A stretch of DNA of 64,000 nucleotides, from positions 2,364,501-2,428,500 of the forward strand of contig NZ_CP054394.1 of assembly GCF_022539405.1 (NCBI RefSeq), read 5' to 3'. Each line of letters opens with the position of its first letter. Position 1 is the first letter of the stretch. The translations under genes and the position numbers were made by a program. This document shows positions 44,340 to 62,813 of this stretch, piece after piece. Source of the DNA: Natranaerofaba carboxydovora. Lineage in GTDB: Bacteria; Bacillota; Natranaerobiia; Natranaerobiales; Natranaerofabaceae. The notes beneath the pieces are model-generated. The model was not told the DNA's origin, searched no databases, and saw nothing but the letters and a program-made list of their open reading frames with translations.

Positions 44340-46211
44340 TTAATAAAAAATCAAAACCTTTTCTTCTACAGGGTCCCAGTTCACTTCTGCTCCAAGAAGG
44401 TTCTGGCTGAAATATCTCACAGGTAGATAGGTTCTTTCTGATTTTTCATCAAGATATGGGGCTACGTCCATTTCCCGTAAACCCCCGTTTACGGTGTATG
44501 TTTTTTCACCTAGCCTGAAGATCACCTGATTATCTTCACTTTCTACTGTAATAGATCTTTCTTCACTATCGAAGATTACATCAGCATCGAATAGCTCCAT
44601 AATAGCTCTAACGGGAAGATATGTCCTGTCATTTCTGATAAAAGGTATTACATCTTCGAATTCATATTCTTTTTCATCTATGGTATATATTTTACTTCCT
44701 ATAGAGATGACCATTGCTGTACTCTTGCTCTCAGCTTCTATCGGTTCCTCTAGTTCTATTTCAATTAAGTCCTGGATCTTCTCTTCCTCTTTAAGTTCTT
44801 CATATTCCTTATCTTCATCAACAATACGCTCTAGGCTCTCTACATACAAAACCAAAGGAACCTGAGCTTTAATTTCGCCGGCTTTACTAAAAGTTAAAAA
44901 ACCGCAGTATTCACCGATAAATTCAGTATCTGCATCAATATCCAAGCTCACTTCAAAGTTTTTCGTATTTCCTTCTTGAATTAGGATCTTTTCATCAAAC
45001 TTTAGATCTAGTTTAGCGATTCTTCCGACTACCCCAACCTCTAATTCCATATCTCCTAATTTTTGACCACTTAAATCTCTTAAATCAATTATTTCAAAGC
45101 TTGCCTTACCCTGCCCGCCTATATCCGATTCAAAAAATCCAAAGCTATGACTTCCATCCAAAACTACAAAGGAAGCTTCCATAGCTCTCTCTAAATCTAC
45201 CCTTCCTGCACCCTGGACCATTACAGGATATTTATTACCCTCTCGGTCAACAAGTACCTCTGAAGTATTCATCAAAATACTTTTTATTATTTCAGGGGTT
45301 ACGTTATCCCCGTGCTTTTCTATAAGTAAAGCCGCTGCCCCGGCCACATGTGGGGCAGAAAGGCTTGTCCCGGAGTTAGCCGCATAACCTCCACCTGGTT
45401 TTGGTGAAACAATATTACCTCCGGGTGCTACAACATGAGGGCTAATCTCCAAGTCAAAGGGTGATGGTCCACTAGAGCTAAAGCTTGAGATCAAATCAAA
45501 ATCTCTCTCCCTATGTCTTCCTCCAGTAGAACCAACAGATATGCCTTTGCTTGTGTTTCCTGGATATCTGATTGAACCTCGTCCTTTATCACCTTCATTC
45601 CCTACTGGTACTACCACCACTACTCCATGCTCTACTGCTAAGTCTATAGCTCTCATTACAGGATAATCTATCAAAGCCTCATCTATATCTGTTGCAACAG
45701 ACATGTTTATAATATCCGCACCGTCATTGACGGCCCGTTCAATCGCTTTTACCAGACTTGTCCCATATATTACACCGTCTCTACCTGCCACATTATAAGC
45801 AAGTATATTTGCATCCGGAGCAACTCCCTGGTATCTTATGCCATTATAAACACTCTCCCCAGCAGCAACCCCAGCCACATGGGTGCCATGCCCGTGAAAG
45901 TCCATAGGGTTATTCCTGGGGTGCATGTTATCACCTATATTATATCCTCCAACATAATTATCCCTTAGATGAGGATGGCGAAAATCCACTCCCGTATCTA
46001 TAATCGCAATCGTTACACCCTCTCCCCTGTAGCCAAATTCATCATCTGCATAATAGGCTCTAATGTGTTCTACGCTTTCATTAATACTTGTCTCGTACAC
46101 TCGATTATTTTCTGTTAATTCTAATGCAACAGCTGCTCCGTCAAAGCTAAATAGATTAAGAGCAATGACAAAAACAGTGATAAAACTTAGTATTCTTTTC
46201 AATCTTTTCAT
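44340..46211 (-). CDS. Subtilisin-like S8 serine protease with stalk domain
   Basis: This 623-residue exported protease starts at the ATG at 46211, which has AAGGGTGG eight bases ahead. The GTG at 46223 is less likely. It has a signal peptide (about 8-30). The S8 domain (about 50-345) has all three catalytic motifs: AIIDTGVDF, HGHGTHVAG and NSGTSLSAPHVAG. A beta-rich linker follows, then an acidic coil (about 460-495) and a C-terminal copper-amine-oxidase-like domain (about 500-623). There is little prodomain, so maturation may differ from subtilisin. A structured leader lies upstream (46279-46390). Confidence 0.92.
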   Translation of the reverse strand: MKRLKRILSFITVFVIALNLFSFDGAAVALELTENNRVYETSINESVEHIRAYYADDEFGYRGEGVTIAIIDTGVDFRHPHLRDNYVGGYNIGDNMHPRNNPMDFHGHGTHVAGVAAGESVYNGIRYQGVAPDANILAYNVAGRDGVIYGTSLVKAIERAVNDGADIINMSVATDIDEALIDYPVMRAIDLAVEHGVVVVVPVGNEGDKGRGSIRYPGNTSKGISVGSTGGRHRERDFDLISSFSSSGPSPFDLEISPHVVAPGGNIVSPKPGGGYAANSGTSLSAPHVAGAAALLIEKHGDNVTPEIIKSILMNTSEVLVDREGNKYPVMVQGAGRVDLERAMEASFVVLDGSHSFGFFESDIGGQGKASFEIIDLRDLSGQKLGDMELEVGVVGRIAKLDLKFDEKILIQEGNTKNFEVSLDIDADTEFIGEYCGFLTFSKAGEIKAQVPLVLYVESLERIVDEDKEYEELKEEEKIQDLIEIELEEPIEAESKSTAMVISIGSKIYTIDEKEYEFEDVIPFIRNDRTYLPVRAIMELFDADVIFDSEERSITVESEDNQVIFRLGEKTYTVNGGLREMDVAPYLDEKSERTYLPVRYFSQNLLGAEVNWDPVEEKVLIFY

Positions 46212-46278
46212 TTTTTTCGCCACCCTTTTAAAGAAATAAAATTTAATAAAACATTAAAATTTAATAAAACATTAAAAT

Positions 46279-46390
46279 AAAAAAAGCCTCCCCGAGTAGG
46301 GTGGCTCCATGACACTATCAAACAACACTCAAGATTTTACACTTCATACTAATTAGAGTGGAGTCAGCTTTCCCCGGTATTTTGTTTTAT
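46279..46390 (-). ncRNA. Structured 5' leader with terminator, copy A
   Basis: On the minus strand this region shares an ordered set of blocks with 62645-62740: ACAAAATA, CCGGGG+AAGC, a TGAC/GTCA stem, GGAGCC and CCCTACTCGGGG. The block CCGGG can pair with CTCGG. The 3' end is a terminator stem (GCC.CCC/GGGG.GGC) with a T run that uses the same CTCGGGG bases, so the two folds exclude each other. It ends about 68 bases before the protease start, like a transcription attenuator. No known class recognised. Confidence 0.62.
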
Positions 46391-46406: not shown

Positions 46407-46712
46407 TCACATATTATACCACAATAAGGAATGAATTAGGGATATAAATATACAAAATTTCCTCTGAAATCATAGAACCATTTAACATAGAATGAAAGCA
46501 AAAAAGCTAAAGAAAAATATATACAATTTTATGCTGAAGGATATAAAGACATTGATGTAAAAAAAGCGCTAAACAGCTTCTGGTGTAGTTATTCGTTAGT
46601 TGTTTACTTAAATCAATATTTTCTTGAAAGATTAGAACCATTTAATATAAAATGTATACAAAGAAGCCCTATATGCTTTAGTTTAAAAGGGAGTAAGAAG
46701 GAGTGACTAAAA
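46407..46712. other. Intergenic region before the lipoprotein gene
   Basis: Candidate -10 boxes (TATAAT, minus strand) lie at 46401-46406 and 46413-46418. An imperfect direct repeat of about 22 bases (TAGAACCATTTAA...) occurs near 46482 and 46631. A frame of about 71 codons without a start (FYAEGYKDIDVKKALNSFW) crosses 46500-46700. It looks like a relic. No family was recognised. Confidence 0.35.
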
Positions 46713-59905: not shown

Positions 59906-62533
59906 CTAATATACAATTGTGACTTGTTCTTCTACTGGATCCCAGGTTACCTCTGCGCCAAATACGTCCTGGCTGAAGTATCTTACGGGTAGATAAGTTC
60001 TTTCTGCTTCTTCGTCAAGGTATGGGGTTACATCCATTTCTTTTTCTTCACCGTTTACGGTGTAGGTTGTTTCGTCTAATTTGAAGATAACAACATGCTC
60101 ATCTTCACCCTCACCAGTAGTAATGGTAATGGATCTGTCTGCTCCATCGTATTTTACTTGAGCTTCAAAGGCCTCCATTATAGCTCTAATGGGAAGATAG
60201 GTTCTGTCATTTCTGATGAAAGGTTCTACATCACTGAATTCAAATTCTTCTCCATCAATTGTATAGGTTTTACTTCCTATGGTAATCACCATGGTTTTTG
60301 TAGTTGATTTCACTTCTTCTTGAAAAACTACTTCAAACTCCACAGCGTTACCTTCTTCAGTTACTACTTCTATTCTGTAAGTTCCAAAATCTCTTACCTT
60401 AACTTCAAAGCTTGCTTTACCATCTTTAAAGTCTTTCTTGTTTAAAATATCAATTTTGTCTTCTTCCTGGGTAAACACATCATATTCTTCATCTTCTCTA
60501 CCTTCATCTATGGTTCTATAACCATCTCTATCTCTCATTATTAGGGTTACAAAAGCATTTTTTTCTCCGTCTATTACATCAATTACTGCTTCGATATGAT
60601 CTAATTCTCTACCCACATAGAAGGTAGCGCTGTCTCTAAAACCATCGTCGTGCACTGCTGTAATGATTGTTTCACCCTGGCTTCTAGGGTTAATATGACC
60701 TTCATCTCTATTAACAGTAGCAACAGAGTTTCTGCTAGAGCTAAATCTAATCTCTCCACCGTATTTGTAGTCTTTTTCCATGCCTTTGTCATCAACCAAA
60801 GTTACTTCTGCTGCGTTTTCAAACTCGCTTTCACTTCTAAGAGCTACCTCAGGGTTTAGCTCTAATCTGATCTCGACAAGCTCACCGAATTCTGCTGCCA
60901 TGATTGTGGTGTATGCTCTCTGAGTGGTTCCGGCGATATTTCCTCTTACTTCATATTTACCTTCTGCATCGCTTCCTAACTCGTCTTCAATCTTTGAGTA
61001 GTCAACTTCTACATAGAACATCTCTTCATCATCGCACCAAAAGTCCCTGTAATTATTTTGTCTACCAACTATCTCATCACCGATGTCACCTGCGCCGTAT
61101 ATATTACCCTTTGGGTCTACTACTCTAAAGCCAAATATATCATCCCAGTCATAACCAGCACTTAGACCTCTTGTGGCAGATATTAGGCTGCCATAGTCGG
61201 TGTTGCCATACTCATCTGCTATCTCGAAGTATACTCTAAAAGTATCATCCTCTATATTGTGAAATCCACTTGCTTTCTCAGCCTTAATGCTATCTGCATC
61301 ACCAGGGAATACAGAGACAGTTATCACATCATAAAACAGATGTTTTTGATTTATTTTATCACTATCTACACTATTATCGTGATAGTCGTTAGCTCTTCTC
61401 CAGGTACCAGCCACTGCGCGAAGTTCGTATTTTCCTTCTTTCTCAATATCAAATCTTACCTTAGCTTCGCCGTCTCTGTTGGTTTTTACTGTGTCGATTT
61501 TTTTCCAGCCTTTGTCCCAGTCTTTGCTGCTACTTTTTTCTCTAATTTCGAAAACTACGTTTTCTCCTTCTACTTCCCAGCCAGTACCTCTATAGCCTGA
61601 AGATACAACTCTTCTATCATCATATGCTGTTGCTTTAAGCTCGATGTCTTTACCGGCTTTGATCCAGCCATCGTCAACACCGCTGTTTACTTTGTCTACT
61701 TCTAGCTCGATATAGGCTATATCTTCCTTTGAACCAACATTAATTGTGGCACTGTCGATTCTGCGTCTTTCGCCCTGATCTTTGTAAAAACCCACATCAA
61801 CTTCATCTGGTACAGTTGTTACTATCTCTAGTTCTACATCCCCTCTATTGTTCTCGACAACCACGAAGTACTCGTTAGCCTTAGCATCATTAACATTGAA
61901 GCCCTCACCGTGATAGTCATTATTATATTTATTTACGTCATTTCGATCTTCTAGGTGAAGTATCGCTACTATATCGCCTGCATCTTCATCAATGTATGAT
62001 GCATCTCCACTTAAGATTACATAAAACATAATATGCCCATTCTCATCACCTTCAAATCTATTGCCATCAGTAACGCGAAATCTTAACTCAAATTCTGAAA
62101 CCTCGTCAACTTTTACGTTTTCGTCATAGTTTCTGATTCCACTTGCAGCAATACTGTAGCCAAATGGGCTTACAGGCTCTTCTTCAACAGCTACAACAGC
62201 CTCTACATCGCGAGGAGAACCACTCCAACCATCAGGTAATTCCAGTACGCCTACTGCATTGTAATCCCCCGCCTGATTAGCATTGTAGTCTGTTATGCTC
62301 CAGGTGATGGTCGCTTCTCCTTCTTCTCCCCCTGCTCCTGTAACATCAACTGTACCTGCCAACTCTTCTATTGCGTCAGCTTCTTCAGTGCCGAATGGAA
62401 CTGAAATGTCAAAGTCTACCTCTTCTGTTGATTCATATTGGATACCTTCTGCTAACACAACCCCGCTAAACAATGTGAACACCATTACTACTGATAACAA
62501 CATAGATAGTATTTTTTTGTTTTTCATTTTCAT
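59906..62533 (-). CDS. Large S-layer-like surface protein with stalk domain
   Basis: This 875-residue protein has a signal peptide (about 6-30). Several Ig-like domains follow, including one with the Big-type motif NPRSQGETIITAVHDDG (about 600-650). A C-terminal copper-amine-oxidase-like domain (about 745-875) has NDRTYLPIRAIMEAFEAQV and RTYLPVRYFSQDVFGAEVTW. It is acidic throughout and probably a surface-layer or adhesive protein. The same C-terminal module ends the S8 protease at 44340. The ATG at 62533 is about 13 bases after AAAGGAG. A structured leader and short upstream frame precede it. Confidence 0.87.
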   Translation of the reverse strand: MKMKNKKILSMLLSVVMVFTLFSGVVLAEGIQYESTEEVDFDISVPFGTEEADAIEELAGTVDVTGAGGEEGEATITWSITDYNANQAGDYNAVGVLELPDGWSGSPRDVEAVVAVEEEPVSPFGYSIAASGIRNYDENVKVDEVSEFELRFRVTDGNRFEGDENGHIMFYVILSGDASYIDEDAGDIVAILHLEDRNDVNKYNNDYHGEGFNVNDAKANEYFVVVENNRGDVELEIVTTVPDEVDVGFYKDQGERRRIDSATINVGSKEDIAYIELEVDKVNSGVDDGWIKAGKDIELKATAYDDRRVVSSGYRGTGWEVEGENVVFEIREKSSSKDWDKGWKKIDTVKTNRDGEAKVRFDIEKEGKYELRAVAGTWRRANDYHDNSVDSDKINQKHLFYDVITVSVFPGDADSIKAEKASGFHNIEDDTFRVYFEIADEYGNTDYGSLISATRGLSAGYDWDDIFGFRVVDPKGNIYGAGDIGDEIVGRQNNYRDFWCDDEEMFYVEVDYSKIEDELGSDAEGKYEVRGNIAGTTQRAYTTIMAAEFGELVEIRLELNPEVALRSESEFENAAEVTLVDDKGMEKDYKYGGEIRFSSSRNSVATVNRDEGHINPRSQGETIITAVHDDGFRDSATFYVGRELDHIEAVIDVIDGEKNAFVTLIMRDRDGYRTIDEGREDEEYDVFTQEEDKIDILNKKDFKDGKASFEVKVRDFGTYRIEVVTEEGNAVEFEVVFQEEVKSTTKTMVITIGSKTYTIDGEEFEFSDVEPFIRNDRTYLPIRAIMEAFEAQVKYDGADRSITITTGEGEDEHVVIFKLDETTYTVNGEEKEMDVTPYLDEEAERTYLPVRYFSQDVFGAEVTWDPVEEQVTIVY

Positions 62534-62577: not shown

Positions 62578-62610
62578 CTAGAAAGCCCTATACTTTCGCC
62601 GTAGATTCAT
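62578..62610 (-). CDS. Possible leader peptide (10 residues)
   Basis: ATG with a very strong AAAGGGGGTG site opens a ten-codon frame, MNLRRKYRAF, ending in TAG 44 bases before the S-layer-like gene. It is highly basic. It lies between the leader's terminator and the gene, so it is present only in read-through mRNA. It may control ribosome loading. Evidence is limited to the ribosome site. Confidence 0.45.
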   Translation of the reverse strand: MNLRRKYRAF

Positions 62611-62644: not shown

Positions 62645-62740
62645 AAAAAAAGAGCAACCCCGAGTTGGGCGCTCCTTCTTTTTCACAGTAATACCACACT
62701 TTGTATGGAAACTGCTTGCCTCGGTTATTTTGTTTTTGGT
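62645..62740 (-). ncRNA. Structured 5' leader with terminator, copy B
   Basis: On the minus strand the blocks are ACAAAATA, CCGAGG+AAGC, CAGT/ACTG stem, a CCATAC-AAA-GTGTGG hairpin, GGAGC and CCCAACTCGGGG. The terminator GAGC.CCC/GGG..GCTC has a T run. CCGAG can pair with CTCGG, competing with the terminator. Compared with copy A, the paired bases change together (TGAC/GTCA to CAGT/ACTG; G-U to A-U in the long stem). A -10 box lies at 62770-62775 (minus). Confidence 0.62.
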
Positions 62741-62813
62741 TTCTAAAGATATTTTCAATCTCTAAAGATATTATAGCATGTTTTCATTAAAAAAGGTATA
62801 TATTTTTTCAAAA

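Follow-up and report, generated by a model that had tools for sequence, protein, structure and literature searches.

In RAT/LicT-type and other protein-dependent antiterminators, a less stable antiterminator overlaps the terminator and is stabilised by a bound factor. In the guanidine-IV (GGAM-1) riboswitch and its variant Gd4v, which act on transcription and by default keep it off, the terminator is the 3′ hairpin itself, a pseudoknot ties this hairpin to an upstream hairpin, and the ligand prevents the terminator from forming fully (PMC7736828, PMC9788692, PMC11611296). Here we analyse two leaders of Natranaerofaba carboxydovora that lie on the minus strand of a 64,000-nucleotide (nt) stretch of contig NZ_CP054394.1 (positions 2,364,501 to 2,428,500; hereafter the window, numbered from its first letter), each upstream of a gene for an exported protein. 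Like guanidine-IV and Gd4v, both leaders have an intrinsic terminator as their 3′ hairpin, and the loop region of this hairpin pairs, by prediction, with an upstream element. We think it reasonably probable that they share ancestry and attenuate transcription in cis, with termination as the default outcome and this pairing (P1) as the antiterminator. By analogy they appear to work like guanidine-IV, yet we do not class them with that family. If confirmed, they would represent an orphan switch that governs surface proteins, from a lineage that has been poorly sampled. They would also add a natural case of an upstream element capturing a terminator loop, the plan known from guanidine-IV.

Block order and similarity of the two leaders

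A first-pass annotation of the window had placed two leaders with ordered blocks upstream of exported proteins that share a C-terminal module, and both are present where it put them, with leader 1 at 46385-46279 and leader 2 at 62733-62645. The blocks follow the same order in each: ACAAAATA, an optional A, CCGRGG, one variable position (N), AAGC, a variable region, GGAGC, a CCC arm, ACTCGGGG, and GC followed by seven T. The segment from GGAGC through the CCC arm and ACTCGGGG to GC and the T run is the intrinsic terminator that ends each leader, and the CTC of ACTCGGGG is located in the loop of its hairpin. The variable region between AAGC and GGAGC measures 58 nt in leader 1 versus 38 nt in leader 2. 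Each leader has an extended −10 promoter-like site on its 5′ side and the gene for the exported protein on its 3′ side; direct reading finds TGnTATAAT ~27 nt (leader 1) and ~36 nt (leader 2) 5′ of ACAAAATA. These TATAAT sites with an upstream TG, putatively the −10 element of each leader, are absent from the list produced by a simple promoter consensus scan because that scan demanded a −35 hexamer.

Across the 3.26 Mb genome the exact block pattern is confined to the two leaders, and the reversed-pattern control gave 0 matches. Given that the pattern was derived after the fact, we also compared all terminator-bearing stretches from 355 kb of the genome, 84 in number, which make 3486 pairs. The pre-terminator score of the leader pair was 107, a value reached by 6 of the 3486 pairs, the leader pair included; the other five were one tRNA pair and pairs resembling coding ends, mostly of PF07833 genes. 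Within the 5′ block, 17 of 18 defined positions are identical, and there is one inserted base in addition. A coincidental likeness between two unrelated terminator leaders could draw on a permissive gapped shuffle test, where p is only ~8e-4 for the pre-terminator part (~9e-5 for the whole leader), and on a blastn comparison of one leader with the 355 kb, which recovers only the terminator part of the other (E 0.4-0.5). Set against this are the pair ranking and the fact that the ordered blocks are unique in the genome and belong to the two genes whose PF07833 modules are most alike, so that coincidence, already disfavoured, seems to us very unlikely. The sequence comparison indicates that the two leaders are homologous.

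This genome contains 42 matches to PF07833 (Cu_amine_oxidN1), and a shared PF07833 module alone is therefore weak evidence of relatedness. It becomes informative because neither module has a closer relative than the other: they are reciprocal best matches among 40 and 68% identical, and any other PF07833 module is at most 50% identical to these two. The presence of the leader on the closest module pair speaks for genuine homology and makes a partial duplication its possible origin. A duplication that carried leader and C-terminal module together might have left nothing but a terminator or attenuator that works constitutively and senses nothing. The closeness of the modules favours this account, and so do the fourfold-degenerate sites of the shared module, of which 16 of 31 (52%) are still identical against ~29% third-position identity expected from composition, so that some of the leader similarity could be residual. 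The 5′ block, however, is far better kept than the fourfold sites, while the stretches that separate the blocks are unequal in length and share little of their content, and for inherited similarity without a sensor we would use the word doubtful. The greater likeness of the 5′ blocks suggests that they are under constraint, although the blocks were picked by eye and estimates of constraint are thus optimistic, a first point against treating the leaders as attenuators.

Predicted pairing that would compete with the terminator

The proposal that CCGRG pairs with CTCGG at the expense of the terminator proved plausible. Folding predictions find this complementarity in both leaders and make P1 mutually exclusive with terminator pairing. 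In transcripts cut just after CUCGG, the pair probability of P1 is 0.83-0.90 in leader 1 and 0.87-1.00 in leader 2; as the predicted transcript lengthens, P1 is partly kept for 2-6 more nt and is gone when the terminator arm has been completed. When the 5′ block alone is shuffled, the observed P1 pairing is reached in 36 of 1000 trials for leader 1 (3.6%) and 8 of 1000 for leader 2 (0.8%), which places the pairing moderately above shuffles, the two tests not being independent because the blocks are common to both leaders. The exclusive pairings, and the order in which shortened transcripts adopt them, are, like the block homology and the terminators, computed results, and the mutually exclusive terminator and antiterminator by which a transcription attenuator is recognised are present as predictions.

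Under the attenuator reading, RNA polymerase would start ~20-30 nt 5′ of ACAAAATA, to judge from the −10-like sites, and would synthesise in turn the 5′ element CCGRGG-N-AAGC, the variable region and the terminator. The emerging CUCGG would pair with CCGRG to form the P1 antiterminator, which the finished 3′ arm of the terminator would normally displace, stopping transcription; a signal that holds P1 would let polymerase read on into the surface-protein gene. Such a signal, which might be a protein, an ion or a small molecule, would most likely bind the conserved stretches that surround P1, namely ACAAAATA, AAGC and GGAGC. That the balance is regulated, that a signal acts on P1 and that this signal turns the genes on is what we infer.

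Further results weigh against the attenuator reading. For the full transcript, the best fold with P1 falls 8-10 kcal/mol short of the terminator fold in stability, so that a strong stabiliser would be needed. The whole fold of leader 1 is no better than shuffles (z −0.29); that of leader 2 is better (z −2.86). A covariance model built from the leader pair (R1, with one leader 1 base left out to align the arms) found no convincing member in 32 selected relatives nor, with stricter filters, in 398 genomes of the phylum. There is also no true two-sided covariation in these two sequences from one genome. Paired bases had been said to change together between the copies, and this was not borne out: in P1 the leaders differ on one side of the pair only (G-U versus A-U), and the stem formed by TGAC/GTCA versus CAGT/ACTG is matched by shuffles in 40% and 33% of trials, lies in registers that differ relative to AAGC and, as TGAC/GTCA, is missing from the minimum-free-energy fold of leader 1. 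What survives of the first-pass description of a riboswitch or other attenuator is attenuation through competition between CCGRG and the terminator for CTCGG, which is the best reading; the covariation part of the description fails.

Two versions of this attenuator reading differ in what would hold P1, and the likelihoods that we attach to them overlap with that of the attenuator itself. In a riboswitch proper, P1 and its conserved flanks would form an aptamer that binds a metabolite or an ion, and this ligand would block the terminator. The loop-capture plan resembles that of guanidine-IV, and rare riboswitch classes of narrow distribution are on record (PMC6478431). No ligand-linked gene was identified nearby, however, the downstream genes encode surface proteins, and two members with no covariation across genomes do not amount to a conserved aptamer; we hold the riboswitch as a possible but tentative explanation. 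A more specific form, a lineage-restricted riboswitch class whose 5′ CCGRGG captures the terminator loop and which induces cell-surface proteins on an ion or second-messenger type of signal, is in our judgement unlikely. Alternatively, an RNA-binding antiterminator could recognise single-stranded ACAAAATA together with CCGRGG/AAGC and stabilise P1. A dedicated regulator would be in keeping with the strictly conserved, A-rich and single-stranded block immediately 5′ of P1 and with the presence of only two targets in the genome, and the less stable P1 overlaps the terminator as in RAT/LicT-type systems. No RAT sequence is apparent in the leaders. Since no candidate protein was identified and Rfam gave no leader match, a protein-bound P1 strikes us as somewhat unlikely.

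Attenuation by ribosomes translating a leader peptide might be suspected from a short ATG frame, MKCKILSVV, that direct reading finds before the leader 1 terminator. This frame is without an evident Shine-Dalgarno sequence, no ATG precedes the leader 2 terminator on direct reading, and the leaders have no codon run in common; we reject this explanation as extremely improbable.

Table 1. Features of the two leaders and their downstream genes (window coordinates)
Feature	Coordinates	Strand	Remark
Leader 1 putative −10 (TATAAT, upstream TG)	46413..46418	-	Direct reading, inference
Leader 1 conserved block ACAAAATA	46378..46385	-	Sequence comparison of leaders
Leader 1 CCGGGG-A-AAGC	46367..46377	-	CCGGG 46377-46373, 5′ strand of proposed antiterminator P1
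Leader 1 intrinsic terminator GGAGCCACCCTACTCGGGGAGGC + T7	46279..46308	-	CTCGG 46296-46292, 3′ strand of proposed P1
Leader 1 gene, exported S8 subtilase-like protein, 627 aa, C-terminal PF07833 module	44340..46223	-	
Leader 2 putative −10 (TATAAT, upstream TG)	62770..62775	-	Direct reading, inference
Leader 2 conserved block ACAAAATA	62726..62733	-	Sequence comparison of leaders
Leader 2 CCGAGG-C-AAGC	62714..62724	-	CCGAG 62724-62720, 5′ strand of proposed P1
Leader 2 variable-region hairpin (GCAGT..CCATAC/GTGTGG..ACTG)	62686..62715	-	No demonstrated leader 1 counterpart; 4-bp base stem at chance level
Leader 2 intrinsic terminator GGAGCGCCCAACTCGGGGTTGCTC + T run	62645..62675	-	CTCGG 62664-62660, 3′ strand of proposed P1
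Leader 2 gene, exported protein, 875 aa, C-terminal PF07833 module	59906..62533	-	

Known RNA families and searches for further members

Rfam 15 at its curated threshold gave 0 matches in the whole window, the T-box, c-di-GMP, c-di-AMP and TPP families included, and a relaxed search (E up to 10) returned chance-level matches only on either leader, in keeping with the earlier remark that the leaders fit none of these four families. Silence in Rfam alone neither proves a leader novel nor makes it unknown, because Rfam also missed leaders resembling guanidine-IV. These stand upstream of three SMR transporter genes (L134, L140, L142) and share GCCG and a TAGGCC loop, with a terminator; by our own reading of their sequences they would be guanidine-IV, and Rfam 15 gave no match on them.

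Could the two leaders be diverged members of guanidine-IV/Gd4v? They have the same overall plan, a 3′ terminator hairpin with a pseudoknot-like pairing to an upstream element. In guanidine-IV, however, the pairing partner lies in an upstream hairpin, whereas here it is the 5′ CCGRGG block, and the terminator loop is ACTC in place of the TAGGCC of the guanidine-IV-like examples, with no T.AGG or TAGGCC-type loop in either leader. Guanidine-IV and Gd4v serve guanidine exporters, N-acetyltransferases, MATE proteins and a transaminase, whereas these leaders serve a subtilase and an 875-aa exported protein, genes unrelated to guanidine; no PF00893 gene was found in this genome. We consider such membership exceedingly unlikely.

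Searches for relatives of the leader pair returned only the two leaders in the source genome (R1) and no added member in 38 genomes with a P1-structured covariance model (R2), which gave weak matches only. Matches listed for the 5′-block pattern in the 398 phylum genomes were without a terminator (L106, L111, L114 and L115, on the other strand, left out). Two viral scans added no member, with one pattern match in viral_contigs (L105), and plasmid searches found no relative of the leaders. The first-pass annotation had suggested a covariance model and a search of the phylum, and had named a lack of further instances and of covariation as the outcome that would tell against it; this is essentially what was obtained. 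As the genomes compared include none of the same genus and just two from the order, the absence of further members is a weak refutation, and lineage restriction and undersampling are inseparable. The pair is thus a candidate orphan switch of narrow distribution and not a demonstrated riboswitch class.

Several weak candidates were set aside. Two R2 matches directly follow purine riboswitches and are probably their terminators; the other R2 matches were unremarkable. Two extra pattern matches in relatives (L003, L004) look like chance in GC-rich sequence, as do 11 in one GTDB contig scan, mostly GC-rich and apparently coding. A match with E 0.037 (L075) comes after a regulator gene, not in the position of a leader. 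Another (L041), a weak match to both R1 and R2, has a CCTAG/CTAGG pair like that of the leaders and was rejected because its orthologues carry GTAG/TAG repeats and lack the blocks. It belongs to a group of leaders of a TrpX-like ABC binding protein (L041, L053, L055, L057, L058, L059) with many GTAG/TAG repeats before the terminator, which suggests TRAP-type attenuation in those genomes; Rfam gave no match on L041. As in TRAP-type trp leaders, on that reading, the leaders studied here place a terminator upstream of an exported protein, but they carry shared blocks in place of such repeats.

Downstream genes and their surroundings

An export signal is predicted on both downstream proteins. Most of the PF07833 matches in the genome fall on proteins that carry an export signal, and many cluster at ~2.37-2.49 Mb. 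When the regions 5′ of the PF07833 genes were scanned, no third such leader came to light. The next-closest module (~50%) is carried by an 819-aa exported paralogue on the minus strand (L082, the gene containing 2483820-2484170), which has a long upstream region without the leader and an N-terminus that resembles that of the 875-aa protein.

Two further elements flank leader 2, both on the minus strand. A direct repeat, ATATCTTTAGA, lies just 3′ of its putative −10 (window 62741-62770). Between its terminator and the 875-aa gene, a short frame, MNLRRKYRAF, is preceded by a strong Shine-Dalgarno sequence (AAAGGGGGTGA; window 62578-62610).
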